DNA of 55,759 bases. Source: Nitrospira sp. CR1.2. GTDB lineage: Bacteria; Nitrospirota; Nitrospiria; Nitrospirales; Nitrospiraceae. Shown here in pieces: positions 1-17,005 of this stretch (within the stretch, counting starts at the first letter, position 1; every line of letters begins with the position of its first letter). Below the pieces are notes generated by a model, which was not told the DNA's origin, ran no database searches, and saw nothing but the letters and a program-made list of their open reading frames with translations. The position numbers were made by a program, and so were the translations under genes. The stretch lies in the NCBI GenBank assembly GCA_014055495.1, contig WIAG01000023.1, positions 1 to 55,759 on the forward strand, read 5' to 3'.

Positions 1-170
1 CGACGCCGATTGCCTATGAGACGCTGCTGCTCGATCCGACGCGGCCGCCGGAGCGGCCCACGCCGGGGTATGTGCTCTCGGCCGCGGTGCTGGAACGGGT
101 GGCCCGCTTCGGCGCTGCCGGCCAGGCCCCGGCCCGCAGACGGCGACGGACGACAGCAGTCACAACGTAA
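1..170 (+). CDS. C-terminal end of a large-block protein, 5' truncated by the window
   Basis: An open frame enters from the left edge (first full codon at position 3) and stops at TAA 168-170, giving about 55 visible residues. It contains PIAYETLLLDPTRPPERP and ends in an Arg/Thr-rich tail (RRRRRTT). Base use is the same GC-rich, Pro/Ala/Arg-rich style as the next four genes, and the stop lies only 20 bp before the next start, so it is probably the preceding member of the same operon. I do not recognise the family from this tail and give no function. Confidence 0.6.
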   Translation, partial: TPIAYETLLLDPTRPPERPTPGYVLSAAVLERVARFGAAGQAPARRRRRTTAVTT

Positions 171-190
171 TTCACATTGGATGACACATC

Positions 191-2806
191 ATGCCTGAAC
201 TGACCGCAGCCACGTATCGCTTCTACTCCTGGCTTCGCCAAGGACTGCTCGCAGGCCTCTCCGGTCCCGGCGCTTCCAACCCGGCCACGGCGGGACGCCT
301 CGCGCTCCCCATTCGCCTTCGCGTGAACGACCGCACGCCCATCGACGTCAACGTCCAGCTCTATGGGCCCGGCGACATCACGGGACTCGACGCGCGCGAA
401 ATCATTCGCACGGAACCCCACCCCCACATGACCGACTTCGAGCCGAATTATTTTCCGGCCATCGAATTCGATCGCCCAGACTTCCCCTGGCTGTTCACCC
501 CGGCGGCGGCTGACAGCGCGCGGCGACTCCGTCCGTGGATCTGTTTAATCGTCGTTCCCAAGGAACGGGCCACGCTCAAGACCAACCCGCAGCGGCCCTT
601 GCCCACGATCACCTGCGCCCTGGAAGACTTGCCGGACCTCGACCAGTCCTGGGCCTGGGCCCATGCCCAGATCGTGGCCGAACAACGCTCGACGCCCGAT
701 CCTTCACCCCGTGCGACGTTGCAACAGATCCTTCATGATCATCCTGAACGGACGCTCTCGCGGTTGCTGGCGCCGCGACGCCTCGATCCCAATACCGCCT
801 ACTATGCCTGCCTCGTGCCCACCTACGAGGTGGGGAGGAAAGCGGGACTGGGCCAGCCGATCACGCCGGAGGACGAACAGGCCTTGAAACCGGCTTGGGC
901 CAAGACCGCCTCGGCTGGACCGGTCACGCTGCCGATATTTTTCCAGTGGGAGTTTCGAACCGGCCTCGCGGGAGACTTCGAATCGCTCGCACGCCGCTTG
1001 AAGGCCCAGCCCCTGCCCTCCACGGTGGGCTTGCGGCCGGTGGACATCCGAACGCCCGGCTGGGGCATGCCGACGCTGCCGTCTGGCGCACCCGGCGGCC
1101 TGTTGGATCTGGGTGGAGCCCTTCTGACTCCCGAGACCCAGCCGCGTGACTGGCCTGACCAACCGCGCAAGACATTCCAACTGGCCCTCGGCGCGATCCT
1201 CAACGCACCGGCAGCGATGGCCGGTACAAGCGGAGCCCCGGCGCTCCTCGGCCCGCCCCTGTATGGGCAATGGCACGTAGATCGAGACAGCCTGCCGCCC
1301 GCGGACCAACCGCCGCACTGGTTCCGCGATCTGAATCTGGATCCGCGCCACCGCATCGCCGCCGGTATCGGTACGATGGTGATCCAACAGGAGCAGGAGC
1401 CGTTGATGGCCTCGGCCTGGGATCAATTGGAACAAGAACGGCGGGATCGACAGCGGCTCAAACGCGCGCAGTTGGCGGAGGCCGTCGGCGACAGTCTCTC
1501 GAAGAAACACTTCGCCGCGCTCGACCCGGCGAGATTGCTGCAACTCACGGGGCCGGCGCTGCGAGCGTTGACGGGCATCGCCACATCCCCCACGACGCCG
1601 CCGACTTCCGCCACCAGCCTGTTGTCCGGCCACCCGGCAATGACCGGCGCCTTCCGCCGTCTGACCCGCACCAATGGACCAATTGCTTCCCACGCAGCTA
1701 CATTCGACGGCCTTCGGCTCCCCGCCACGTCGCCCGCCTCGACGGCCGGCCAGGCGTTTCGCCCGCTCATGCAATTTTCCGTCGCCACCAAACAGCGGCA
1801 GGCGCCGGCGTTGCGCGAATGGTCGGAGCTCAAGGTGGAGATGCTGCGGCGCCTGACCCCGAAAGAGGCGGTGCTGGCCGCGGTGAAGAAAACAATGCCC
1901 TCCGTCGAGAATACGGAGCTGACGACCTTCGCGCCGAGTTTTCTCCAGCCGATGTACGAACCGTTGCGCGACTACGCACCGGACATGTTGTTGCCCGGCA
2001 TGGACCTGGTGCCCTCGAACACGATTGCACTGTTGAAGACCAATCCCGCATTGATCGAGGCGTACATGGTCGGACTGAACCACGAGATGAGCCGCGAACT
2101 GCTCTGGCGTGGGTTTCCGACCGATCAACGCGGCACCTACTTCCGGCAATTCTGGGATGCCGGTGGCGATGAACTGCCCACGACCGACGCGCAGCGCGAG
2201 GCTCGCTTCGACATCACGCGGATCACCTCATGGGCGGCGGAGAGTCTGCTCGGTTCTCACAGTGCGCGAGGCTCGGCGGTGGGCCAGATGGTGCTCCTCA
2301 TTCGCGGCGACCTCCTGCGGCGCTATCCAAGGGCCATGGTCTATGCGTTGGAGAGCGTCTGGTCTGCGGACGGCACGAGACGTGAGCTGGGCACGACGGA
2401 ACGGTATCCGATTTTCCGTGCGACGCAGGTACCGGACATCACCATGCTCGGGTTTCCGCTCACCGAAGATCAGGTACGCGGAGCGGACAAGCCGACGAAC
2501 GGAGGACATCCGGGCTGGTTCTTTGTGCTGCAGGAACAGCCGACGGAACCGCGATTCGGCATGGACGTCGCCACGACCTATGGCGGTACTCCCGCGCATT
2601 GGCCGGACCTGACGTGGGGCAACCTGGCGCCGGACGAAGCCGCGCTGAAACAAATCGTGTATGTACCGATCGACGGCCTGTTGAAGAATGCTGTCGTCGA
2701 TCAGATTCCGTGGGGAAAAAACTCCGCGCATATGGCCACCATTACCAGACAACCGCCGTTCCGCGTGGCGGTTCATGCGAGAACCTGGCTGCCGGGCCGG
2801 CAGTAG
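191..2806 (+). CDS. Large conserved protein of unknown function, 871 aa, block member 1
   Basis: Long open frame starting at ATG 191, 20 bp after the previous stop. No signal peptide or membrane helix is visible, so it is probably cytoplasmic. The N-terminal third has aromatic and proline-rich stretches (DFEPNYFPAIEFDRPDFPW, then RLRPWICLIVVP) followed by a Trp-rich segment (DQSWAWAHAQ) and NTAYYACLVPTYEVG. The middle (about residues 405-560) is charged and Ala-rich. The C-terminal part resumes a conserved-looking globular pattern (RGDLLRRYPRAMVYA; LTEDQVRG; GWFFVLQEQPTEPRFG). These look like family motifs, but I cannot name a domain. It is followed 20 bp later by the coiled-coil gene and shares its orientation and codon style, so it probably acts with the next three products. 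Confidence 0.85.
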   Translation: MPELTAATYRFYSWLRQGLLAGLSGPGASNPATAGRLALPIRLRVNDRTPIDVNVQLYGPGDITGLDAREIIRTEPHPHMTDFEPNYFPAIEFDRPDFPWLFTPAAADSARRLRPWICLIVVPKERATLKTNPQRPLPTITCALEDLPDLDQSWAWAHAQIVAEQRSTPDPSPRATLQQILHDHPERTLSRLLAPRRLDPNTAYYACLVPTYEVGRKAGLGQPITPEDEQALKPAWAKTASAGPVTLPIFFQWEFRTGLAGDFESLARRLKAQPLPSTVGLRPVDIRTPGWGMPTLPSGAPGGLLDLGGALLTPETQPRDWPDQPRKTFQLALGAILNAPAAMAGTSGAPALLGPPLYGQWHVDRDSLPPADQPPHWFRDLNLDPRHRIAAGIGTMVIQQEQEPLMASAWDQLEQERRDRQRLKRAQLAEAVGDSLSKKHFAALDPARLLQLTGPALRALTGIATSPTTPPTSATSLLSGHPAMTGAFRRLTRTNGPIASHAATFDGLRLPATSPASTAGQAFRPLMQFSVATKQRQAPALREWSELKVEMLRRLTPKEAVLAAVKKTMPSVENTELTTFAPSFLQPMYEPLRDYAPDMLLPGMDLVPSNTIALLKTNPALIEAYMVGLNHEMSRELLWRGFPTDQRGTYFRQFWDAGGDELPTTDAQREARFDITRITSWAAESLLGSHSARGSAVGQMVLLIRGDLLRRYPRAMVYALESVWSADGTRRELGTTERYPIFRATQVPDITMLGFPLTEDQVRGADKPTNGGHPGWFFVLQEQPTEPRFGMDVATTYGGTPAHWPDLTWGNLAPDEAALKQIVYVPIDGLLKNAVVDQIPWGKNSAHMATITRQPPFRVAVHARTWLPGRQ

Positions 2807-2826
2807 CGACGGAAAGAGACGAGACC

Positions 2827-3636
2827 ATGCCCTATTTAGAACAAGAGACCGTGCGACTCCAGACGGCCCTGCAGGCCTTGGCCGCGCAACAGACGACGTT
2901 GACCACCCAACTCACCACCCAACAGCAGGCGGTGACGGCGGCCCAGGCCCAACGCACCAACGCACAGAACGGCGTGGCCCAGGCCCAGGCGCGCATTCCG
3001 CCGCTGCAGGCCGCCGCCGCCGCCGCAGATGCTCAGGTCGCAGAGGCACAACAAAATCTGCTCGATGCGTCCGAACCGCCGCAAGGCATCCCCCCGGCCA
3101 CATGGAGGGCACGCCTGGCCGCGCTGCGAAAACAACTCGCCCTGGCCCAGACTGCCGCAACCGCGGCCCATGCGAAGGTGACTGAAGCGCAGCAGGGGGT
3201 AGCGCAAGCGCAGGCACACGTACGGGCGACAGATGTTCAGGTTGCGGCGGCAACCGCTGCGGTGCAGGTCACCCAGGCTGCAATCGCCGCCCTTCAACCT
3301 CGCCGGCAGGAACTGCAAACGAAGCTCGCGGAGATCGAGCGCATGAACGCAGAGATCACGCGCGACCCGCTGGCGAGGGAAACCCTGCAACAGGTAGCGG
3401 CAGACCTGTCGGCCCGCACGGCGACGTTGGAAGATACTCTTCTCACGACGCGGTTCGAGCTGGAGGATGCCGAGATGCTCCTCGCAAGCGTGATCACCAG
3501 GCGCAATGAACTGACGACACTGCTTGCCGACCTTGCCAGGCAGATCCCTGAGGCGGAGGCGCAACAGGCAGCGGCCCAGCAGGCGCTGGCGGCTGCCGAA
3601 GCCGAGGTCAGCGCGCATTTACAGGACGGGCCGTAA
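2827..3636 (+). CDS. Coiled-coil protein, 269 aa, block member 2
   Basis: The frame is open further upstream inside the previous gene, but ATG 2827 is chosen because it follows that gene's stop by 20 bp and has a purine-rich GGAAAGAGACGAG ahead of it. The product is almost wholly Ala/Gln/Glu/Leu with heptad-like spacing, for example LQTALQALAAQQTTLTTQL near the start and AAAQQALAAAEAEVSAHL at the end. A single proline-containing break (SEPPQGIPPATW, around residue 80-90) separates two long helices, as in a helical hairpin. No signal peptide is present. The related coiled-coil segments in the 1772-aa neighbour suggest the two bundle together or scaffold an assembly; that is inference. Confidence 0.85.
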   Translation: MPYLEQETVRLQTALQALAAQQTTLTTQLTTQQQAVTAAQAQRTNAQNGVAQAQARIPPLQAAAAAADAQVAEAQQNLLDASEPPQGIPPATWRARLAALRKQLALAQTAATAAHAKVTEAQQGVAQAQAHVRATDVQVAAATAAVQVTQAAIAALQPRRQELQTKLAEIERMNAEITRDPLARETLQQVAADLSARTATLEDTLLTTRFELEDAEMLLASVITRRNELTTLLADLARQIPEAEAQQAAAQQALAAAEAEVSAHLQDGP

Positions 3637-3663
3637 GTTTATGTCCATGAAAGGATCAGCCGC

Positions 3664-6600
3664 GTGAGACCGATTTCTGAAGGACCAGATATTCCCGAAC
3701 GGGTGCCCCCGGCATTGCTCCGGGCATGGGCGACCAAACTGCGCCAATTGCAGACGGCGCACGACCGGGCCGTTGTGCGAACCCAGGCGGCGCAACGGCG
3801 GGCCGCCCTGCTCATCAGGCAACGGGCGCTCTATCAGGCCGAGTTGTCTCGGGTGAATGCCCAGATCACGGCCACGCAGGAGACGGTGACGCGGAAGACA
3901 ACAGAAGTCGCGGCGTTGTCGGCGCAGGTCGACGAACATCGAACCGCCCGCGATGCCGCGACGGCCCGATTGCTTGGCACGGATCGCCTCAGCGGCACAG
4001 TCGCGACGACGCATCCACTGCTGCTGTTCCCCGTCCGCGTAGAAACCAGGTTTTCCGCGAGGCGGACGGGACCAGGCACCGACCTTCTGCTGCGCGTCTA
4101 TCCCGACGACCTTCATCTCGACAGCCACGAACCGGCTCTCACCGAAGAAGAGGAACGCCGCGGCAAGGAGTTTTGGACCCATGTCGCCGCCGCGCCGGCA
4201 GGTACGGACCGGCAGGAGCATATCAGGCAGGGCTGGCAACGGCTTACCGAACAATTCGGCACGACCCGCGCCGCCTGGATCGCCCATGTACTCGATCCCT
4301 CCCAATCCGGAACGGTCACTCGCCGCAACGATAGTTGGACCCGCGCGCCCCACACGCAGGTCCTGCCGGACCGCTGGGTCGCCGTCGGGTATCGCAACGA
4401 GGCAGCACGTGTCACCGCCTGGGGCGAGGCCATCCCGGAGACCGTGGCGGTCGGCCCTGACCCACGCGACACTGGCCAGCTCGGCAGCAACGGGATGCCG
4501 CCCGTCGATGACGGCATGAAATGGATCACCGATTTCGATACGGCCGAATCGATCGGGATGGGGCTACGTATTCCCATCACGGAGGAAGACGCCCAGGCGG
4601 GATTCGATCGAATCGTGGTGCTGGGCCTCAAGGCCTCATGGGACGCCCCGACCACGGCCGACCGGTTGGCCCGATTGTTCGATGCCCACCATTACACCGG
4701 CAGCCTCGCCCTCGTGGAGCAACAGGTGCCGACGAACAATACCGCGGAAGCCTCAGCCGGGTATCGCTCGACCGGGCGTCATGCCGCCGACAGCATGGGC
4801 GTCGAATTGGGCGCCTCGCTTATCCGCCCCGGGTCCGACGGCGAGCTGCTGGCGCAGGCCTTGGGCCTCCCGGCATCTGTCTTCGCGCATATCCGCGGTG
4901 CCGACGGATCGGAACAGCGCCGATCTTCCCTCATGCAGGCGGCTCTGCTCGCGCTCTGCGACAGTCCTCTCTTGCGCCAACTGCGCGGCACAGCCGGAGC
5001 CGACGCGCTGCGCGACCATTTCATGAAGTACGTCCGTGCCCGAGGGCCACTGCCGGTGTTGCGTGTCGACAGCCAACCCTACGGCCTGCTGCCGGTGGCG
5101 GCGCTCGACCGCTGGATCTCGGCGACCGATCAGGACCAGGACAAGGCTCTGGCCGACTGGTGGCGCGCGCAACGATTGACACGTCGACGCCAGGCGTCAC
5201 AAGTCCTCCAGACCACGGTGGAATCCAATCCCGTCGTACTCTTGGCGCAGGAAGCGAACGCCTTTCGCTACACCTTGCGCGAATTTCCAGAGATCTCCAC
5301 CCAACAACCGCCCGTCCCGCAACGGCTGCTCTCCGAGGCCTTCCGGACGCTGCTGCTGACCCGCGCACTCGCGACACCGCACGAGCCGGCCTGGGATGAG
5401 GTGACGACCCTGCCTAAACCGGTTCAGCAGCAACTGCTCGCCGAGGTGATGGATCTGCTCACCTATCGCCTCGATGCCTGGGGTACGTCCCTGGCCACCA
5501 GACGGCTGGCCGCGGTGCGAAAGGCTGCGCCCAGCGGCCTCAGACTCGGCGCCTACGGCTGGGTGGAACAGGTCCGGCGTGCGGCCCCGCTGCTACCGGT
5601 CCCGGCACTTCCGGCCGGTGTCCCGGCACCACTCGCGCGCTCGGAAGCGAACAAGGGCTTCGTCCACGCCCCTTCGCTGGGGCATGCGGCGGCCGCTGCC
5701 GTGCTGCGAAGCGGCTACCTGTCGAATGAGTCGAATCGCGCACCCGGCGCGTCGCCCTTTGCCGTCGACCTGTCGTCGGAGCGGGTCCATCGCGCCAAGT
5801 GGCTGCTCGACGGCGTGCGCCAAGGACAGTCCCTGACCGCCCTGCTCGGGTATCGATTTGAACGTCGCCTCCACGAACGCGGGTTGGACCGCTACATCCA
5901 GCGCTTCCGCGCCCTCACGAGCTTCACCGGCACCGACCGCTTCGCCGACATTCGCGCGACCCTGACACGGGCAGAACGGCTGGCGCAAGAGGTCACCTTG
6001 CTGACGGCGCAACGTGACCAGGCCCTGCGCCGGGCGGAAGACGCCCGTGGCTTGAAGGCCGAACGAGAACGTCGCGCGGAGACCTATCGCGCTGAACTGG
6101 GAACAATCGCCACGCTCGCACAACAGGCGCAGGCCGCGCAGACCCAGGTGGCACAGGCAGCCCAGGTGCTGGCGCAGCAACAGGCGGCAAAACCGCAGGG
6201 CAAGGTCATCCAACCCACCGTGCGGCGGTATGCCGTCCAGCTGTTGGAAGCGCGGGATTTGGATGAGTGGGACAACCGCGTGGAACAGTTGACCCAGGTC
6301 CATGCCACCGCCCTGGCCCAAGCCGCCGCCGCACAGCAGGCCGTCAGCGCACGGGATGGCGCTCGCCAGCTCGCGGAACGGGCCCAGGCCAAGCTGCTCA
6401 ACGCCTCCGATCCGGATTCCATTCCCGCCGCGCAGCAGATCGCAATAGGGCAAGACACGCTCGCCGCAGAACTCGACCGCCAGGCGCTCGCCAAGGAAGG
6501 CGGGCAACGCGGTAAGGCCATGGGCGATCTCCTGGCCGCCAGGGCGGCACTCACCACGAGGCTCGCCGCGCAATGGAATGAGGCGCTGAAATCGTTGCCG

Positions 6601-8982
6601 GCTGCCGCCGTGGTCGATGGACTGGCCCTGCATCGACGATGGACCGCAAGCCAACAACGCCAGGCACCGCAATCTCCCTGGGATGTCACCACCATTCCGT
6701 TCGGCAACGCGACCTTGGGATTTCCACCGCCCGGCAGCCCGGACTTCATGGCGCTGGTGGAGACGCTCAAGGCACTCGACGATCTGGTCGACTCGGTCGG
6801 GGACAGTGTCGTGGCCGAAAGCGTGTATCAGCTCGTGCAAGGCAATCCGCTCCGTTCAGGCGCCACGTTGGATGCCATTGCCGCGGGTGAGGTTCCGCCG
6901 CCGGAATTGGACGTGATTCGCACGCCGAGAAGCGGCGTCGGACTGACGCATCGCCTCTGCACGCTGTTCCCGGCAACTGATGGAACGGCACCGGCCGGCT
7001 GGCCGACGCCCACTCCATCGGCGCGCGCTCAAGCCGAACCGATCCTCAACGCCTGGACGGCGACGTTGCTCCCGAACCCGGCCCAGGTCCGTTGTAAGGC
7101 CGACTACGTCAATCAGCAGGACGGGCAGGTCTATCACACGGTCGAGAGCCCGTTGACTTCGCTCGGACTGGCGCCGCTGGATGCGGCCTTTCTCGCCGAA
7201 GGCAGCACTCGTGCACAGCAAGCCGAACTGGAGCAACGTTGGCGATTCGTGCTGCAACAGATTCGTCCCGCGACCGTCCCGCCGGATGCGATCATTAGGC
7301 TGCAGTTCGGTCGCGAGAGTGGCTGGGGCGCGGAGATCGTCAGCGTGAGTGAATGGTGCGAGGTCGCGACCACGGTGCGGCGGCTGCTTAGCAACGCCCG
7401 CTCGCTTGACGGCCGCGACTTGTCGTTGCCCGAATCACCCGCCGATTCCGGGCTGAACCATGACGAATTTTCCGGTCGCGCGACCCGCGCGGTGCAAGCC
7501 CTGACCGATGCGCGCGGTAAGCTCAACGGCCTCCTGCCGCCGCCCTCGTCGGATGACCTGACTGCCGACCTCGACGAAGTACGCCGCGCTCTGCTCGGTG
7601 TGGCGAACTTCGGCATACCGAGTGCCGTCCCGATGGACATCGGCGGCACGGGCCCGGACGCCCGCTCGTTGCTCCTGACACAGGCACGGTCGGTCGTCCT
7701 CGAAGCACAACGACGGCTGAACCGCGTCACCGAGTCCGACCAGGACTTTGTGCGCGCAACCGCCACGCCGGAAGAACGGCGCGACCACGACCTGGCTCGA
7801 TTGCGCATCATCTTCGGTCAGGACTTCCTGGCACTACCCCGCGTGACCGCAGCCAATGCTGCGCAGTTGAACGAAACGTTCGCCGCCGGACTGTCGCTCC
7901 AAGGCCAGGATCCCATGGCCGCCGTGACCTGGTTCCAGCGCGCCACCTACGTTCGGCCTGGCGCGACGCGGCTGAACGAAGCGATGTTGTATGGCGAAAC
8001 CGTGGGCAGCGCCGCACTCCGGCTTCATGTTGGACAACTACCGTTTCGGCCACAGGATCGCTGGGTGGCCCTGCCGCAGTCGCCGGACCAGCCGTTCCCG
8101 CGCGGGCGCCTCTCGCTGGTGGCGCAGATGGCGTCGGCACAACCGATCCGCTTCGATCAACCCTTTTGCGGGCTCCTGATCGACGAGTGGGTGGAGACGG
8201 TGCCGAGCCCCAAGGAAACGACGGGCGTCGCCTTTCATTACGATCAACCGAACAACGCGCCGCCGCAGGCGCTATTGCTCGCCGTGCCCTCGGACCGGCG
8301 GGCGACCTGGGACCTCAACAGCCTGGAAGCCGTCCTGCAGGAGACGCTGGAATTGGCCAGACTCCGTGCCGTGGCACCAGACAGCGGCGATGAATTGATC
8401 TGGGTGGAGGATCAGCTACCGGAAGGCGCCACGCCCCTCGGCGACGGCGAGGGCTGGAACTGGATTCGCCTGAAACCGGAACCGCTCTCCGGTCGACTCG
8501 CCCATCAATCGGTGTTCGCCGCAGGCATCCACCAACATTTTTTCCAAGGGGCCGATCTCGCCATGTTCGTCAGCGTGGGGGACCGCCTCTTCACACACGT
8601 CTATCTCGATCCCGCGCGTATGCCGCGCCAAGTCATGCTGCAGTGGCATGCAGGCGATTGGCATCACCGCGCCTATTGGGGCGAGAACCTCATTCCCTGG
8701 GGCACCGACAATACCGTCAGCCGTCAGTACATGGGGCCCCTGCCGCCGCCGGGCCGATGGGTGCGGCTCGAAGTGCCCGCCGCTACCGTGGGACTCGAAG
8801 GACAGATCGTGGGGGGCATGGCCTTCACCCTGTTCGACGGCATGGCCACGTGGGATCGGTCCGGCAAACGCGCGTTGCAGCCGGTCGGTTCCGGTGAGCA
8901 GGATCCCTCGGCACCGGTGCTGTTCTTCACCGGCGGCACCCTCGACTTCACCAGCGTCACCGATCCAGCGATAGGAGCCTAG
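3664..8982 (+). CDS. Giant protein of unknown function, 1772 aa, block member 3
   Basis: GTG start at 3664 with AAAGGA about nine bases upstream; the ATGs at 3641 and 3647 are in another frame that stops at once. Visible layout: an N-terminal coiled coil (about residues 15-105); a conserved-looking block with LLLFPVRVETRF and LLLRVYPDDLHLDSHEP (about 118-160); HHYTGSLALVEQQVPTNN (about 340); LPVLRVDSQPYGLLPVAAL (about 460); a second Ala/Gln-rich coiled coil (about 760-965); and a C-terminal region with FCGLLIDEWVETVPS (about 1500) and a beta-rich, Trp-containing end. No signal peptide, Walker motif or membrane helix is seen. The size, alternating globular and coiled parts and coupling to three unknown partners fit a structural or scaffold subunit, but this is unproven. 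Confidence 0.85.
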   Translation: MRPISEGPDIPERVPPALLRAWATKLRQLQTAHDRAVVRTQAAQRRAALLIRQRALYQAELSRVNAQITATQETVTRKTTEVAALSAQVDEHRTARDAATARLLGTDRLSGTVATTHPLLLFPVRVETRFSARRTGPGTDLLLRVYPDDLHLDSHEPALTEEEERRGKEFWTHVAAAPAGTDRQEHIRQGWQRLTEQFGTTRAAWIAHVLDPSQSGTVTRRNDSWTRAPHTQVLPDRWVAVGYRNEAARVTAWGEAIPETVAVGPDPRDTGQLGSNGMPPVDDGMKWITDFDTAESIGMGLRIPITEEDAQAGFDRIVVLGLKASWDAPTTADRLARLFDAHHYTGSLALVEQQVPTNNTAEASAGYRSTGRHAADSMGVELGASLIRPGSDGELLAQALGLPASVFAHIRGADGSEQRRSSLMQAALLALCDSPLLRQLRGTAGADALRDHFMKYVRARGPLPVLRVDSQPYGLLPVAALDRWISATDQDQDKALADWWRAQRLTRRRQASQVLQTTVESNPVVLLAQEANAFRYTLREFPEISTQQPPVPQRLLSEAFRTLLLTRALATPHEPAWDEVTTLPKPVQQQLLAEVMDLLTYRLDAWGTSLATRRLAAVRKAAPSGLRLGAYGWVEQVRRAAPLLPVPALPAGVPAPLARSEANKGFVHAPSLGHAAAAAVLRSGYLSNESNRAPGASPFAVDLSSERVHRAKWLLDGVRQGQSLTALLGYRFERRLHERGLDRYIQRFRALTSFTGTDRFADIRATLTRAERLAQEVTLLTAQRDQALRRAEDARGLKAERERRAETYRAELGTIATLAQQAQAAQTQVAQAAQVLAQQQAAKPQGKVIQPTVRRYAVQLLEARDLDEWDNRVEQLTQVHATALAQAAAAQQAVSARDGARQLAERAQAKLLNASDPDSIPAAQQIAIGQDTLAAELDRQALAKEGGQRGKAMGDLLAARAALTTRLAAQWNEALKSLPAAAVVDGLALHRRWTASQQRQAPQSPWDVTTIPFGNATLGFPPPGSPDFMALVETLKALDDLVDSVGDSVVAESVYQLVQGNPLRSGATLDAIAAGEVPPPELDVIRTPRSGVGLTHRLCTLFPATDGTAPAGWPTPTPSARAQAEPILNAWTATLLPNPAQVRCKADYVNQQDGQVYHTVESPLTSLGLAPLDAAFLAEGSTRAQQAELEQRWRFVLQQIRPATVPPDAIIRLQFGRESGWGAEIVSVSEWCEVATTVRRLLSNARSLDGRDLSLPESPADSGLNHDEFSGRATRAVQALTDARGKLNGLLPPPSSDDLTADLDEVRRALLGVANFGIPSAVPMDIGGTGPDARSLLLTQARSVVLEAQRRLNRVTESDQDFVRATATPEERRDHDLARLRIIFGQDFLALPRVTAANAAQLNETFAAGLSLQGQDPMAAVTWFQRATYVRPGATRLNEAMLYGETVGSAALRLHVGQLPFRPQDRWVALPQSPDQPFPRGRLSLVAQMASAQPIRFDQPFCGLLIDEWVETVPSPKETTGVAFHYDQPNNAPPQALLLAVPSDRRATWDLNSLEAVLQETLELARLRAVAPDSGDELIWVEDQLPEGATPLGDGEGWNWIRLKPEPLSGRLAHQSVFAAGIHQHFFQGADLAMFVSVGDRLFTHVYLDPARMPRQVMLQWHAGDWHHRAYWGENLIPWGTDNTVSRQYMGPLPPPGRWVRLEVPAATVGLEGQIVGGMAFTLFDGMATWDRSGKRALQPVGSGEQDPSAPVLFFTGGTLDFTSVTDPAIGA

Positions 8983-8984
8983 GC

Positions 8985-10703
8985 ATGCCCTCTCGAATCA
9001 GACTCGACCTCAGCACCCAGAACCCCGACTTGCAAGACGGGTTACAAGCGCGCATCCACGACCCGCTCTGGATGTTGGGACGTCAATGGCAGTTCGGCGA
9101 GTTCAACGGGGCCGATGCCGGTTCGCCTGCCGCCGCGCAGGTGATCGTGGACACCGCCGCCGTCACGCGCTACCAGCCGGGACCACGCTCCGGCCCGCAT
9201 CCGGCTAGGCCCTATGCAGCCGCCGGCCTGGCGTTGGAAACACTTGTGGAGGCAGAGCTGGTCACGGATGACGCACGCCCCAACTGGCGGCTCGCGGCCG
9301 AATCGGGGCGGCATCTCCTCCGCCTGCTGGAAACGGCCAGGCTCGGGCCCACCCGCGCCCAGTGGTTGGCTAGTACGTACGTCCTGGCCGCCCCCACCGC
9401 AGAACAGGCCAAGCAGTTCGACGCTGCGAGCCTGTCCTTCATCCGCGTGCTGAGCGGCCGTACCGTTGACGGCTTGCGGTTCGCTGCGCGCATGAGAGGG
9501 CTGCAAGCCGGTAACCGATTGAATGAGGTCTTTCGGGACGTGCCGCTCGATCAGGTGACCGAGGTGGATCGCCCGAAGATTCTCGCTACCCTGACCGCCT
9601 GGCTGACCTGGCTCGACGGGCTTTTTCAACAGGGCACGGCGCCCTCCGCCTGGATTCCTGAACGGATGGAGTACGCCCTCAGTGTCTCCGCCAAGACGAC
9701 GTCGAGCGAAGTGGTGCTCACCGCGCCGGAATATCTGGATGGACGGTTGGACTGGTTTTCGTTCACGACACGTTCAGGCACCGGTCTGGGCGCCACCGAA
9801 AGCCATACCTCTCTTACGGAGTCCTTTCTCCCCGCACCGGTCTCGTTTCGCGGCATGCCCTCCGCGCGCTTGTGGGAATTCGAAGACGGCGCCGTCAATT
9901 TTGCAAGCGTCCAGGCAGCACCGCAGGACCTGGCGCGCCTGCTGCTCGTGAAGTTCGCACTGGAATACAGCAACGATTGGTTCCTCCTGCCGCTCGAACT
10001 TCCCGTCGGGACAGTTTCACGGGTCCGCGCGCTCGTCGTGACCAACACGTTCGGCGAACGGTTCCTCATTTCCCACACGACCGACGTGGATGGGCCCACC
10101 ACGCCCTGGCGCATGTTCAGCCTCACGAACGATACACAGAAGTTGTTCTTCTTACCGCCCGTGTTGGGACCGATGCTGGAAAGCCGGCCGGTGGAAGACC
10201 TGTCGTTGTTGAAAGATGAAATGGCCAACGTGGCCTGGGCCGTCGAGCGAGTCGTCGAAAGCGCCGCCGGTCGCCCGTTAGAGCGTCATGAAGCCTATCA
10301 AGAAACGCTGGCGGAACAGCCGCCTGCCCCTGCCGCTGACGGCGCACCGCTGACGTACCGGCTCGGCACCACGGTGCCGGACTATTGGATTCCGTTGCTC
10401 CCGGTAAAAGACGGCACCACCTTGCGGCTCAAACGCGGCGTCCTTCCGGCATTCGGCGAGGGCGGCATTCAGGGTCTGCAACTTCCGAAGGGGCGTCTAC
10501 TTGAACCGAACCGCGAGTTGCTGCTGTATGAGGAAGAGGTGCCTCGCGAAGGAGCTCGCGTCACCAGAAGCTATCAATACGCGCGCTGGATCGACGGGAC
10601 CACGCATCTCTGGATCGGCCGGCGCAAGAGCCCGGGCCGCGGCGAAGGGTCGAGTGGGCTCCAGTTCGATGTGGCGGAGAAAAGGGAGGAAGGGAATTCG
10701 TAG
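8985..10703 (+). CDS. Conserved protein of unknown function, 572 aa, block member 4
   Basis: ATG 8985 follows the previous stop by two bases, and its Shine-Dalgarno (AGGAG) lies inside the end of the upstream gene, so the two are translationally coupled. The N-terminus has a striking conserved-looking stretch: STQNPDLQDGLQARIHDPLW, immediately followed by MLGRQWQFGEFNGADAGSP (residues 7-47). Later parts contain EYSNDWFLLPLELPVGT and a C-terminal region with YQYARWIDGTTHLWIGRRK. I remember the DPLWM-RQWQ-GEF pattern from uncharacterised proteins but cannot attach a function. It is the last gene of the block; about 420 bp without a gene follows. Confidence 0.85.
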   Translation: MPSRIRLDLSTQNPDLQDGLQARIHDPLWMLGRQWQFGEFNGADAGSPAAAQVIVDTAAVTRYQPGPRSGPHPARPYAAAGLALETLVEAELVTDDARPNWRLAAESGRHLLRLLETARLGPTRAQWLASTYVLAAPTAEQAKQFDAASLSFIRVLSGRTVDGLRFAARMRGLQAGNRLNEVFRDVPLDQVTEVDRPKILATLTAWLTWLDGLFQQGTAPSAWIPERMEYALSVSAKTTSSEVVLTAPEYLDGRLDWFSFTTRSGTGLGATESHTSLTESFLPAPVSFRGMPSARLWEFEDGAVNFASVQAAPQDLARLLLVKFALEYSNDWFLLPLELPVGTVSRVRALVVTNTFGERFLISHTTDVDGPTTPWRMFSLTNDTQKLFFLPPVLGPMLESRPVEDLSLLKDEMANVAWAVERVVESAAGRPLERHEAYQETLAEQPPAPAADGAPLTYRLGTTVPDYWIPLLPVKDGTTLRLKRGVLPAFGEGGIQGLQLPKGRLLEPNRELLLYEEEVPREGARVTRSYQYARWIDGTTHLWIGRRKSPGRGEGSSGLQFDVAEKREEGNS

Positions 10704-11940: not shown

Positions 11941-12432
11941 TTACCCCTGCAATCGACTCCAGAGTTTCTCGAGCGTGTTGACGAACGTTTTACATTCCTG
12001 GTCGGTCAGGTCGGAAAACAGTTCCGCCACCTGTTCCTTATATTCCGTGCAGCGCGGTGAGAGCTCGGTCATGACTTTGTCGGAGAGTTCAATGACGGTA
12101 GCGCGGCGATCGGTGGGATGTCGTCTCCGCACGACCAATCCGTCATTTTCCAGCGAATCGACCAGCGCCGTGACGTTGGTGGCCGTGACGCCGAGTTCCT
12201 TCTTGAGCTCGCTCATGATCCGGGGGCCGCGCTCGTGAATCGAGCCGAGGATGCGCAACCGTTGCGGCGACAACCCTTTTTCCACCAACAGCGATTCCGA
12301 CCACCGTTGATAGGCCGGAGCGAAGCTCCACAACAGCTCAACCATCCGATGCCGGGGCAACGTCGAGATGCAGGGCGAGACGGAGAGTGCCTTCACGGAT
12401 TTCGATCGCGGGGAAACTTTAAGAGGTTTCAT
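11941..12432 (-). CDS. MarR-family transcriptional regulator
   Basis: About 163 aa with a MarR winged helix-turn-helix: LSPQRLRILGSIHERGP leading into the recognition segment ELGVTATNVTALVDSLENDG, then the wing LVVRRRHPTDRRATVIEL (the DRR motif is characteristic). It would act as a dimeric DNA-binding repressor released by small ligands. It is divergent from the RND efflux genes that begin at 12617, the classic arrangement for local control of an efflux pump. ATG 12432 is chosen; a GTG at 12465 is possible, but its purine-rich site is too close. Only a weak ribosome site is visible for either. Confidence 0.85.
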   Translation of the reverse strand: MKPLKVSPRSKSVKALSVSPCISTLPRHRMVELLWSFAPAYQRWSESLLVEKGLSPQRLRILGSIHERGPRIMSELKKELGVTATNVTALVDSLENDGLVVRRRHPTDRRATVIELSDKVMTELSPRCTEYKEQVAELFSDLTDQECKTFVNTLEKLWSRLQG

Positions 12433-12505
12433 CGTGAGCACCACGGTACTGCAACAACGCGACACCTTTCAATCATAAATTATTCATAGCTGTATCATTC
12501 ATATA

Positions 12506-12616: not shown

Positions 12617-13786
12617 ATGCGCACGATCCGATCTACATCCTGGTTTTTCGCAGTGCTGCTGACGGCGGCCGGCTGTAATAACGAACAGGCCAGCAGCGGC
12701 GGCCAAGCGCCTCCTCCCCCTGAAGTCGGGGTCGCGCAGGTGATCTCGAAATCGGTCCAACAATGGGACGAATACACCGGCCGCATCAGCGCCATCGACA
12801 CAGTCGAGTTACGCCCACGGGCCAGCGGCTACGTGCAGAAAGTCGCCTATAAGGAAGGCCAGGATGTGAAACAGGGCGAGTTAATGTTCCTGATCGACCC
12901 CCGTCCCTACCGCGCCGCATTGGACAATGCCCAGGCGCAACTGGCGCGCGCGCGCGTCGCGCAGCAGCTGGAGACCATCCGCAACACACGCGCACAGGCC
13001 CTGATCACCGACAACGCGATCTCGCACGAGGAACTCGACTTGCGGCGTGCCGCCCAGGCGCAAAGCGCGGCGGATGTCCATGCCGCCGAAGCCGCAGTGG
13101 CTACAGCGAAACTCAACCTGTCTTTCACCGAGGTACGGGCCCCGGTCTCGGGACGGGCGAGCCGAGCGTTGGTGACGGTCGGCAATCTCGCAACTGCCGA
13201 CGACACCCTGCTCACGACGGTGGTCTCGCAGGACCCGATGTACGTGTATTTCGACGCCGACGAAAACAGTTACCTGCGCTACAGGGAGCAGGAACGCAAG
13301 AATGAGCGCAGCGCGCAGGACAATGCCGTCCACGTCGGCCTCGCCAACGAAACCGGTTATCCACATACCGGCCGGGTCGATTTTCTCGACACGCAGGTAA
13401 ACCCCACCCTCGGCACCGTCCGCGCTCGCGCCCTGTTGCCCAATCCCGACCGCATCTTGACTCCCGGACTTTTTGCGCGCGTGCGGTTCGTCAGCGGCCA
13501 AAAGGCACAGGCGCTCTTGATCGACGACAAGGCCATTCTGACTGATCAGGATCGCAAATACGTGTATGCGGTCGACAAGGAAGGCAACGCGCAGCGGAAA
13601 GACGTCGTGCTGGGCGGCATGGTCGATGGATTGCGCGTGGTGCAGTCAGGCCTCACACGGGATGACAGAATTGTCGTAGTCGGCCTGCAGAAAGTCTTTT
13701 ATCCGGGCATGCCGGTTACACCGGCGGAGGTCCCGATGGACAAACCGTCGGCGCCGTCCATTCCCCCAGCCATGATCGGGAAGTAG
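12617..13786 (+). CDS. RND efflux periplasmic adaptor (membrane fusion) lipoprotein
   Basis: 389 aa. The N-terminus is a lipoprotein signal, with LLTAAGC placing the lipidated Cys near residue 21. The rest follows the AcrA/MexA plan: a beta-barrel/lipoyl start (VQQWDEYTGRISAIDTVELR, GYVQKVAYKEGQDVKQGE), an alpha-hairpin rich in Ala/Gln (DNAQAQLARARVAQQLE), the second lipoyl half (LSFTEVRAPVSGRASRALV), and a C-terminal barrel (TLGTVRARALLPNP, LTPGLFARVRF). It links the inner-membrane pump to an outer-membrane channel. The pump gene starts 12 bp later, so they form one operon. No outer-membrane factor is encoded in this window. Confidence 0.93.
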   Translation: MRTIRSTSWFFAVLLTAAGCNNEQASSGGQAPPPPEVGVAQVISKSVQQWDEYTGRISAIDTVELRPRASGYVQKVAYKEGQDVKQGELMFLIDPRPYRAALDNAQAQLARARVAQQLETIRNTRAQALITDNAISHEELDLRRAAQAQSAADVHAAEAAVATAKLNLSFTEVRAPVSGRASRALVTVGNLATADDTLLTTVVSQDPMYVYFDADENSYLRYREQERKNERSAQDNAVHVGLANETGYPHTGRVDFLDTQVNPTLGTVRARALLPNPDRILTPGLFARVRFVSGQKAQALLIDDKAILTDQDRKYVYAVDKEGNAQRKDVVLGGMVDGLRVVQSGLTRDDRIVVVGLQKVFYPGMPVTPAEVPMDKPSAPSIPPAMIGK

Positions 13787-13798
13787 GGAGCGCCGGCT

Positions 13799-16700
13799 AT
13801 GGACTTTTCTAAGTTCTTCATCGATCGGCCGATCTTCGCTGCGGTGCTCTCGATCGTGATTTTCGCCGCCGGCTTGATCGCCATTCCCATCCTTCCGATC
13901 AGCGAGTACCCCGAAGTCGTCCCACCCGCCGTGATTGTGCGCGCCATTTACCCGGGCGCCAATCCCAAGGTCATCGCCGAAACCGTGTCCACGCCGCTCG
14001 AAGAACAGATCAACGGCGTCGAGAACATGATGTACATGAAGTCGGTGGCCGGCTCCGATGGCGTGTTGCAGATGACGATCACCTTCCGTCCCGGTACCGA
14101 TCCGGATGCTGCCCAGGTACAGGTGCAAAACCGCGTCAGCCAGGCCTTGTCGCGCCTGCCGTCGGAAGTGGTCAGCCTTGGTGTGACAACGCAGAAACAG
14201 TCGCCGACCTTCTTGGTGATGGTCCAACTTCTCTCCCCGGAGGGGAAATACGACGCCCTCTACCTGCGCAATTACGCCAACATCAAAATCAAGGATGAAC
14301 TGGCGCGCTTGCCCGGCGTCGGCCAGGTGCAGATTTTCGGCAGCGGCGACTATGCGATGCGTATCTGGCTCAACCCCGACAAGATCGCGTCGCGCGGGAT
14401 GACCGCGAGTGACGTCGTCGCCGCCGTGCGGGAACAAAACCTCCAGGTCTCGGCCGGGCAGCTTGGCGCGGAACCGATTGCGAAAGACACCGACTTCCTC
14501 ATTTCCATCAATGCCCAAGGTCGCCTTCGGACGGCCCAGGAGTTCGGTAATGTCGTGTTGAAAATCGGTGCGGGTGGTGAGGTCGTCCGCCTCTCCGACG
14601 TGGCGCGCCTCGAACTCGGCGCCAACGACTATACGTTGCGCGGGCAGCTCGACAATCAAGACGCCCCGCCCATCGGTATCTTCCAGGCCCCAGGGGCGAA
14701 CGCGCTGACCGTCCGCGATGCCGTGATCGCCAAAATGGAAGAACTGAAAACACGCTTTCCTCCCGGCCTCACCTACCGATCGGACTACGACACCACGGTG
14801 TTCGTGCGTGATTCCATTCAGGCCGTCGTCCAGACGCTGATGGAAGCGATCCTGCTCGTCGTACTCGTCGTCATCCTGTTTCTACAAACCTGGCGCGCCT
14901 CGATCATTCCGCTGATCGCCGTGCCGGTGTCCGTGGTCGGCACGTTTGCCGCGCTGTACCTGTTTGGTTTTTCGATCAATACACTCACCCTCTTCGGCCT
15001 CGTCCTCGCGATCGGGATCGTCGTGGATGACGCGATCGTCGTGGTGGAAAACGTCGAACGCAATATCGAAGAAGGACGCACACCGCTTCAAGCGGCACAC
15101 CAGGCGATGCAGGAAGTGTCGGGCCCGATCGTCGCCATCGCGCTCGTGTTGTGCGCCGTGTTCGTGCCGATGGCCTTTCTCAGCGGCGTCACCGGTCAGT
15201 TCTACAAACAGTTCGCCGTGACGATTGCCATCTCGACGGTGATCTCGGCCGTCAATTCACTGACCCTCTCGCCGGCCCTGGCGGCTAAACTGCTCAAAGG
15301 CCACGGGGCACCGAAAGATGTCCTTTCACGGTCGATCGAACGTCTATTCGGCTGGGTCTTCCGGCCGTTCAACCTATTCTTCAAGGCCAGTTCCAGTGGG
15401 TATCAAGGCACGGTCTCACGCACATTGACCCATCGCGGTTCTGTGTTTGCCGTGTACGCCCTACTGTTGGTCGTCACAGGCATGCTCTTCCAAGCAGTCC
15501 CCCGGGGCTTCATTCCCACCCAGGACAAGTTGTATCTGATGGCCGGGGTGAAACTGCCGGAAGGCGCCTCGCTCGACCGCACTGATGCGGTGTTGCGGCA
15601 GGTCGTCGCGATCAGCAAAACCGTGGACGGTGTCGCGCACGTGGTGGCCATGACCGGCCTGAATCCGTTGCAGTTTACGAACACACCGAACTACGGCATC
15701 GCCTTCCTCATCTTGAAGCCGTTCGACGAGCGCCACCGCAGCGCCAAGGACATCAGCGAGGAAATGAATCAGAAGATCTCCGCCATCAAGGAAGGCATCA
15801 CCTTTGTGTTGATGCCGCCGCCGATTCTCGGACTCGGCAACGGCGCGGGATATGGACTCTTCGTAGAAGACCGGGCGGGACTCGGCTTCGGGGCACTGCA
15901 GAATGCCGTCGGCGCCCTGCAAGGGGCGGTCATGCAGACTCCCGGGATGGGGTACCCGATTTCCGGCTATCAGGCCAACGTGCCGCAGCTTGATGCCGAG
16001 GTGGACCGCGTCAAAACCAAGACCCAGGGCATTGCGTTGACGGACCTGTTTGCCACGATGCAGATCTACCTCGGCTCCGCCTACGTGAACGACTTCAACC
16101 TGTTCGGCCGCACCTGGCGCGTGTATGCACAAGCCGACGGCGATTTTCGAGGCAAGGTCGAGGACATCGCCAATCTCAAAACACGCAACGACCGCGGCGA
16201 CATGGTCCCCATCGGCTCGATGGTGAAATTCAGCCAAACCTATGGGCCCGATCCTGTCCTGCGCTACAACGGCTATCCCGCAGCGGATTTTATGGGAGAG
16301 GCCGATCCCACCACGTTCTCATCGGCACAGGCGATGGATACCATTCGCGACATCGCCGGAAGAGTGCTGCCGAACGGGATGACCATTGAATGGACCGATT
16401 TGAGCTTTCAGGAAGCATCGCAAGGAAAGGCAGCCCTGCTGGTGTTCCCCGTCGCCATCCTGTTGGCCTTCCTCGTCCTCGCCGCACTGTACGAGTCCTG
16501 GACCTTGCCGCTGGCGGTGATCCTGATCGTGCCCATGTGCATGCTGTGCGCACTCGCCGGCGTCAAACTCACCGGCGGCGACAACAATACCTTCGTGCAG
16601 GTCGGCCTGGTCGTGCTGATGGGTTTGGCGTGCAAAAACGCGATTCTGATCGTCGAGTTTGCACGTGAGTTGGAACTGCAGGGGATGGGCATCGTCGAGG

Positions 16701-17005
16701 CGGCCCTTGAATCCTGCCGGCTGCGTTTGCGGCCGATCGTGATGACCTCGGTCGCCTTTATCGCCGGCACGATTCCACTCGTGCTCTCACATGGCGCCGG
16801 TGCGGAAGTGCGTTCCGCCACAGGCATCACCGTGTTCGCCGGGATGATCGGCGTCACCCTGTTCGGCTTATTTCTCACCCCGGTGTTTTATGTCGGCCTC
16901 CGCACGCTGTCAGGGCGCGCGCTGATCAGGCACGATGCTGGACTGGAATCAGCACCCATGGAAGGGCAGTTGAGCGGGGGCGCATACGAACGGCATGAAC
17001 CGTAA
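13799..17005 (+). CDS. RND (HAE1-type) multidrug efflux permease
   Basis: 1068 aa, the usual length for AcrB/MexF-type proton-driven trimeric pumps. The start MDFSKFFIDRPIFAAVLS is typical of the family, with the first membrane helix followed by the porter domain, the central helices with the proton-relay signature GIVVDDAIVVVENVERN (paired Asp), a second large periplasmic loop, and the second helix bundle ending GVTLFGLFLTPVFYV. It exports hydrophobic or amphipathic compounds using the proton gradient, together with the adaptor just upstream. Overall character is closest to MexF/OqxB-like pumps (inference). The substrate cannot be read from sequence. Confidence 0.93.
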   Translation: MDFSKFFIDRPIFAAVLSIVIFAAGLIAIPILPISEYPEVVPPAVIVRAIYPGANPKVIAETVSTPLEEQINGVENMMYMKSVAGSDGVLQMTITFRPGTDPDAAQVQVQNRVSQALSRLPSEVVSLGVTTQKQSPTFLVMVQLLSPEGKYDALYLRNYANIKIKDELARLPGVGQVQIFGSGDYAMRIWLNPDKIASRGMTASDVVAAVREQNLQVSAGQLGAEPIAKDTDFLISINAQGRLRTAQEFGNVVLKIGAGGEVVRLSDVARLELGANDYTLRGQLDNQDAPPIGIFQAPGANALTVRDAVIAKMEELKTRFPPGLTYRSDYDTTVFVRDSIQAVVQTLMEAILLVVLVVILFLQTWRASIIPLIAVPVSVVGTFAALYLFGFSINTLTLFGLVLAIGIVVDDAIVVVENVERNIEEGRTPLQAAHQAMQEVSGPIVAIALVLCAVFVPMAFLSGVTGQFYKQFAVTIAISTVISAVNSLTLSPALAAKLLKGHGAPKDVLSRSIERLFGWVFRPFNLFFKASSSGYQGTVSRTLTHRGSVFAVYALLLVVTGMLFQAVPRGFIPTQDKLYLMAGVKLPEGASLDRTDAVLRQVVAISKTVDGVAHVVAMTGLNPLQFTNTPNYGIAFLILKPFDERHRSAKDISEEMNQKISAIKEGITFVLMPPPILGLGNGAGYGLFVEDRAGLGFGALQNAVGALQGAVMQTPGMGYPISGYQANVPQLDAEVDRVKTKTQGIALTDLFATMQIYLGSAYVNDFNLFGRTWRVYAQADGDFRGKVEDIANLKTRNDRGDMVPIGSMVKFSQTYGPDPVLRYNGYPAADFMGEADPTTFSSAQAMDTIRDIAGRVLPNGMTIEWTDLSFQEASQGKAALLVFPVAILLAFLVLAALYESWTLPLAVILIVPMCMLCALAGVKLTGGDNNTFVQVGLVVLMGLACKNAILIVEFARELELQGMGIVEAALESCRLRLRPIVMTSVAFIAGTIPLVLSHGAGAEVRSATGITVFAGMIGVTLFGLFLTPVFYVGLRTLSGRALIRHDAGLESAPMEGQLSGGAYERHEP

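Follow-up and report, generated by a model that had tools for sequence, protein, structure and literature searches.

In type VI secretion, a dedicated adaptor beside each variable effector joins that effector to a common carrier. Tc/ABC toxins comprise several giant leaderless proteins with a variable enzymatic part, and their large subunit contains VCBS/FG-GAP-type modules. Polymorphic toxin systems combine a constant part with variable effector domains, which are swapped through recombination with cassettes (Zhang et al., 2012, PMC3482391). Here, a 55,759-nucleotide stretch of DNA from Nitrospira sp. CR1.2 (contig WIAG01000023.1; hereafter the window) was analysed, whose positions 1-10703 hold the end of a DUF6603 gene followed by four genes designated A to D. 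This block is the 3′ half of a larger operon of fixed order, [hydrolase - DUF6603]1-2 - A - (B, Nitrospira only) - C - D. The best explanation of the operon is a polymorphic effector-carrier system, to which we give about an even chance of being correct.

The gene block in the window

The block had been described in an earlier reading of the sequence (the original prediction) as co-directional frames (tail, 871, 269, 1772 and 572 amino acids, aa) separated by 20, 20, 27 and 2 bp. These coordinates agree with ours, and the motifs quoted from the frames are present where they had been placed. The genes were assigned as follows.

1..170, plus strand: 3′ end of the DUF6603 gene (last 55 codons and stop); phmmer E = 3e-28 against the C-terminus of a relative's DUF6603
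191..2806, plus strand: A, 871 aa; leaderless, with conserved N-terminal (to ~500) and C-terminal (from ~570) parts
2827..3636, plus strand: B, 269 aa coiled-coil protein; length counted from the ATG aligned with relatives
3664..8982, plus strand: C, 1772 aa; conserved blocks ~110-500, 580-785 and 960-1590
8985..10703, plus strand: D, 572 aa; 20 diverse sequences share 26 invariant columns

The coding tail of DUF6603 occupies positions 3-167, with the frame ending at 170. This 55-residue tail falls past the PF20248 domain and is matched by phmmer only, which aligned it with the C-termini of the DUF6603 proteins immediately 5′ of A in relatives. For A, C and D, the supposed lack of recognised domains was borne out by zero family matches in Pfam, NCBIfam or PHROG (none in Pfam at E 10 for A and C); B gave generic coiled-coil matches only. 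Sequence searches of A, C, D and DUF6603 returned no credible PDB match. In the 20 diverse D sequences, seven of the 26 invariant columns lie within residues 1-46 (RxE...HDPLWMLGRQWQFGEF).

In codon-position divergence, comparison with two other Nitrospira shows purifying selection on the genes of the block; against N. defluvii the values were ~0.22/0.14-0.17/0.49-0.52 for all four genes. Relatives of A, C and D were found in distant phyla at roughly 27-49% identity. Because of this divergence pattern and these distant relatives, A to D were taken as real genes. B was seen only in Nitrospira-type copies, so the dedicated coiled-coil partner that had been proposed is not a general feature of the system. 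The Nitrospira copies of C bear coiled-coil-like stretches of their own.

Operon order and variable hydrolases

DUF6603, A, C and D were found in the same order and on the same strand in ~55 of ~55 loci with enough sequence, and a DUF6603 (PF20248) protein stood 5′ of A in every one. The upstream gene of N. defluvii, Algoriphagus and Salinigranum matched PF20248 at E 1e-114 to 1e-139, over the Pfam gathering cut-off. The gene 5′ of A is a full-length member of a family whose Pfam entry describes only a domain of unknown function. The most informative half of the operon, which lies upstream of position 1, is the one that the original prediction overlooked, although it had proposed inspecting that side for protease, toxin or sheath genes. 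In relatives, hydrolase-DUF6603 units, including peptidases, were found there, and no tie to a contractile sheath emerged.

In most copies, the gene preceding DUF6603 encodes a PLD-family enzyme, an M64 peptidase, an S8 subtilase or a PhoD-like phosphatase, and the catalytic motifs were intact in the copies checked (PLD HKD, M64 HExxH, S8 triad). Some Nitrospira carry tandem hydrolase-DUF6603 units, namely PLD and M64 in locus L039, PLD and S8 in L076 and L078, and an unrecognised gene and M64 in L062. In the Bacteroidota locus L058, and apparently also in L043 and L060, a single reading frame spans DUF6603 and the upstream region of enzyme size. The genes of L039 and L078 overlap or are separated by gaps of 13-21 bp, save one gap of 282 bp without a called gene. 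In other lineages, A carries a variable insert of ~60-900 aa between its conserved halves and C a variable insert between its first two conserved blocks; several of these inserts are FG-GAP/propeller-like or LamG-like.

D and DUF6603 were carried by seven and nine of 296 actinobacterial genomes, respectively, with six carriers shared (p = 6.6e-10, a value that ignores relatedness). Three Actinobacteria had DUF6603 with D undetected (L090, L091 and L092, in genomes G509, G566 and G551): L091 encodes a DUF6603 protein of 3233 aa and gives a weak match to A, and the other two have other large neighbours. These loci are possibly a sister system. In a further locus (L074 of genome G165, reverse strand 7383-10164), two similar proteins of 465 and 476 aa (MPEKTKEQF...) occupy the hydrolase place 5′ of DUF6603; they had no Pfam match, and against the S8 cassette profile their matches were only weak and partial.

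Two-part sequence of DUF6603

Where two DUF6603 genes stand in one operon, they were compared with each other. Over the 3′ 1.73-1.77 kb, the DNA identity of the pair was 99.6% in L039, 100% in L078, 98.9% in L076 and 86.8% in L062. Upstream of a sharp boundary near codon 500-620, the same pairs share only about 20-30% protein identity, with front halves at about 21% in L039, L078 and L076. The front half of a DUF6603 protein is nearest to front halves that stand beside the same enzyme class, even across phyla; the M64-linked front half of Rhizocola, for example, is closest to M64-linked front halves of Nitrospira.

The identity of the DUF6603 core and of the front half was compared with A identity or enzyme class by Mantel tests over 21 loci. 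Core identity rose and fell with A identity (r = 0.95, p = 2e-4) but showed no link to enzyme class (r = -0.05, p = 0.68). Front-half identity, in contrast, did follow enzyme class (r = 0.39, p = 2e-4). Because of this division, DUF6603 is, at the level of its sequence, a hybrid of an enzyme-specific front part and a carrier-specific back part, and new enzymes appear to enter the operon by recombination within the DUF6603 core.

Another contig of the window's genome (C104) carries a PLD-family gene and breaks off 574 codons into the DUF6603 gene that follows it. The end of this contig and the start of the window, 55 codons before the end of DUF6603, fit this hybrid arrangement, with one or two hydrolase-DUF6603 units between them. 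A literature search, which did not cover subscription papers, found nothing on DUF6603/PF20248, its chimeric structure or its partners A, C and D.

Distribution and horizontal transfer

Operon loci were found in eight bacterial phyla and in haloarchaea. With A, C and D in the same order across distant phyla and archaea, and with no named system found, the proposal of an undescribed multi-protein system found support. Relatives of D came from Nitrospira, Verrucomicrobia, Actinobacteria, a Leptolyngbya-like cyanobacterium, Bacteroidota, Acidobacteria and Proteobacteria. Within a sample of 296 Nitrospirota, D was present in 15 of the 16 genomes belonging to the same genus as the window; elsewhere it was carried by 7/296 Actinobacteria, 6/247 Bacteroidota, 4/199 Acidobacteria, 1/299 Proteobacteria and 1/194 Cyanobacteria, counts that include the genome on which each search was centred. 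Plasmid-borne copies of D were seen in Streptomyces, Rhizobium, Gemmatirosa and haloarchaea. The D tree splits Actinobacteria and Proteobacteria with strong support, placing for example Steroidobacter with Rhizocola and Rhizobium with an actinomycete. Since the tree mixes phyla in this way, the module moves horizontally.

A viral origin was considered and rejected. The search of viral contigs (viral_contigs) returned no relative of the system, and the single 'phage' match (L096, MT835531.1) is an unverified faecal scaffold carrying DUF6603-A-C-D in order, most likely bacterial DNA filed as phage.

Some individual copies deserve mention. In a contig labelled Gemmatimonadetes (L016), A, C and D are 93-95% identical to those of the window; it is probably a mis-binned Nitrospira contig. 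Some Nitrospira carry C-terminal fragments of D (~residues 450-572) 3′ of the intact gene (L009:12176-12553, 81% identical; G234:C51:57099-57260), which resemble the displaced 3′ ends of cassette systems. The D matches of genomes G101, G159, G209 and G299 were each reported with one in-frame stop inside; some of these copies may be in decay, or the match may run over a boundary.

Leaders and contractile sheaths

No leader was recognisable on A, C, D, DUF6603 or the hydrolases in Nitrospira, Streptomyces, Rhizobium and haloarchaea by a hydropathy test, which is not a signal-peptide predictor. Hydrophobicity over the first 45 residues reached at most 1.8 for the operon proteins, whereas a neighbouring protein that does have a Sec-type leader reached 2.9. 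The proteins of the window likewise have no N-terminal hydrophobic segment (maximum 19-residue Kyte-Doolittle value in the first 60 aa ≤0.81), in line with the predicted lack of an export signal.

The sheath family PF04984 was matched in 16 of 16 tested genomes of the window's genus and was absent from 6 of 28 D-positive Nitrospirota, closed genomes included; the profile may miss diverged sheaths. The association of sheath and D across Nitrospirota (p = 0.001) was driven by the genus, and outside it the counts were 6/12 versus 5/19 (p = 0.26). A contractile sheath as a requirement of the system was therefore rejected, given the closed D-positive genomes without PF04984 and the loss of the association outside the genus. 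In Rhizocola hellebori, a sheath gene and a LysM-type tube/baseplate-like gene lie ~6.5 kb 3′ of D; in other genomes sheath and D operon are apart. Between D and the sheath gene of Rhizocola (L036:11781-18830) are a gene for a small Cys-rich peptide, a LanC-like gene and a lantibiotic dehydratase gene (LanB).

Structure predictions

The AlphaFold2 model of D had a predicted local distance difference test score (pLDDT) of 73.5 and a predicted template-modelling score (pTM) of 0.70. It gave no Foldseek match in PDB below E = 0.1, and VIA Z was at most 4.7. As the structure search was uninformative, no claim of a new fold is made. Residues 26-36, a very conserved stretch, are the least confidently modelled part of D, and this conserved N-terminal stretch is probably a docking segment.

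For the DUF6603 core, the prediction is one long meander built from amphipathic strands. Its alternating hydrophobic pattern scored z = 5.7 and 6.5 relative to shuffled sequences. The structures nearest to the core model were ApoB100, pilus ushers and porins, at root-mean-square deviations of ~9-16 Å. The core is read as a predicted extended amphipathic beta sheet, and these structures are not read as homologues. That DUF6603 is an ordinary outer-membrane porin of the producer was rejected because copies are present in Gram-positive Streptomyces and in haloarchaea.

Other features of the window

A MarR-type regulator lies near the block on the minus strand (11941-12465). It is followed at 12617-17005 by an RND-type efflux pair, made up of an adaptor of 389 aa and a pump of 1068 aa and identified by reading the sequence without profiles; a similar pair lies 3′ of the operon in N. 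defluvii (L011). The window contains no RNA families.

Discussion

Compared with the described systems, the operon shows several partial likenesses. Identical 3′ DUF6603 cores with unrelated, enzyme-tracking front halves recall polymorphic toxins. There, however, the toxin is the C-terminus of a large secreted protein, whereas here a gene of its own further upstream encodes the hydrolase, which is N-terminal in the fused cases, and the variable region is at the N-terminus of the adaptor. Moreover, no immunity gene fits in the two operons measured (L039 and L078), which argues against an ordinary interbacterial polymorphic toxin. The giant leaderless proteins, the variable enzyme and the FG-GAP-type inserts resemble Tc toxins, but A and C have no TcA/TcB Pfam domains and the enzyme is separately encoded with a chimeric adaptor; the fold comparison bearing on Tc subunits covered the models of D and the DUF6603 core and gave no informative match. 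The placement of DUF6603 next to each variable hydrolase is like that of type VI effector-adaptor pairs. Unlike these, DUF6603 matches no searched family except PF20248, contractile machinery is not required, and the system also occurs in Gram-positives and archaea.

In the polymorphic effector-carrier explanation, A, C and D, together with the coiled-coil protein B in Nitrospira, would form the invariant carrier. The front half of DUF6603 (~450-520 aa) would be specific for the cognate hydrolase (PLD, M64, S8 or PhoD-like) and the back half, the putative long amphipathic beta-meander, for the local carrier, so that DUF6603 would load exchangeable enzymes onto A/C/D. Enzyme and front half would constitute a cassette, replaced or added via homologous recombination in the near-identical core. 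In A and C, the variable inserts (propeller/FG-GAP/LamG-like) may bind targets or surfaces, and release may take a route other than Sec/Tat, such as lysis, with action on an outside target. The original prediction had suggested a structural assembly or a carrier; the carrier idea fits best because swappable hydrolase and DUF6603 cassettes lie directly upstream. The sequences show the constant order, the variation of the hydrolases, the two-part adaptor and its matching rules, the horizontal spread and the lack of recognisable leaders; physical assembly, binding, the export route and the outside target are what we infer.

Several observations weigh against this explanation. Front-half identity of DUF6603 also follows A identity (r = 0.37), about as strongly as it follows enzyme class, and part of the front-half signal is therefore common descent. 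Several copies carry an upstream gene in which no enzyme domain was recognised, and in a few no upstream gene is visible. The model of D is just moderately confident and gave no structural relative, and immunity and lysis genes were not recognised beside the operon.

The same operon could instead encode a nutritional or surface hydrolase assembly, in which a cell-attached scaffold presents interchangeable hydrolases that degrade polymers or membranes and no weapon is involved. Generic hydrolases, the lack of immunity genes and environmental hosts would suit such a scaffold, as would a peptidoglycan-binding domain in the upstream gene of one Streptomyces plasmid copy and the haloarchaeal copies, whose D has a lamin-tail domain and whose C has a BGTF surface domain according to PGAP. 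We consider it unlikely, given that a leader peptide was recognised in no copy checked and that recombining cassettes are typical of conflict systems (PMC3482391). The lack of leaders would agree with an intracellular defence system, in which A/C/D would detect an invader and set free or switch on the hydrolase to kill or arrest the host cell. The patchy, horizontally moved and often plasmid-borne operon, with a variable effector and a constant core, also agrees with this, and defence systems with PLD or subtilase effectors are known (DrmC and subtilase were the PADLOC models matched). However, those matches on PLD and S8 reflect generic enzyme domains, PADLOC models matched none of A, C, D and DUF6603 at E 0.01, and neither an ATPase nor a sensor domain was recognised. 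Inserts of the FG-GAP/LamG-like kind are mostly extracellular and the operon is near-fixed in Nitrospira, which makes defence quite unlikely.

That the operon supplies cargo or an accessory module to an extracellular contractile injection system is, in our judgement, improbable. The neighbouring genes of Rhizocola hellebori and the PF04984 match in all 16 tested genomes of the genus speak for it. They are countered by the six D-positive Nitrospirota without PF04984, by the non-significant association outside the genus, and by the separation of sheath and operon in other genomes, with lanthipeptide genes intervening even in Rhizocola. Returning to the effector-carrier explanation, we put slightly less than an even chance on its fuller form, an effector system new in class and shared by Bacteria and Archaea, in which chimeric DUF6603 would load hydrolases onto a giant A/C/D particle without phage-tail machines or Sec/Tat signals.

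The operon with its three giant protein families is apparently undescribed; the families are without entry in the searched libraries and are mostly 'hypothetical' in public plasmid records. It is conserved across the eight phyla and haloarchaea and nearly universal in the sampled Nitrospira, which are key nitrifiers. The chimeric adaptor gives DUF6603 a testable role, in which sequence predicts the enzyme class served by each adaptor. If the carrier acts outside the cell, the operon would represent a means of enzyme handling that depends on neither contractile sheaths nor Sec/Tat signals.
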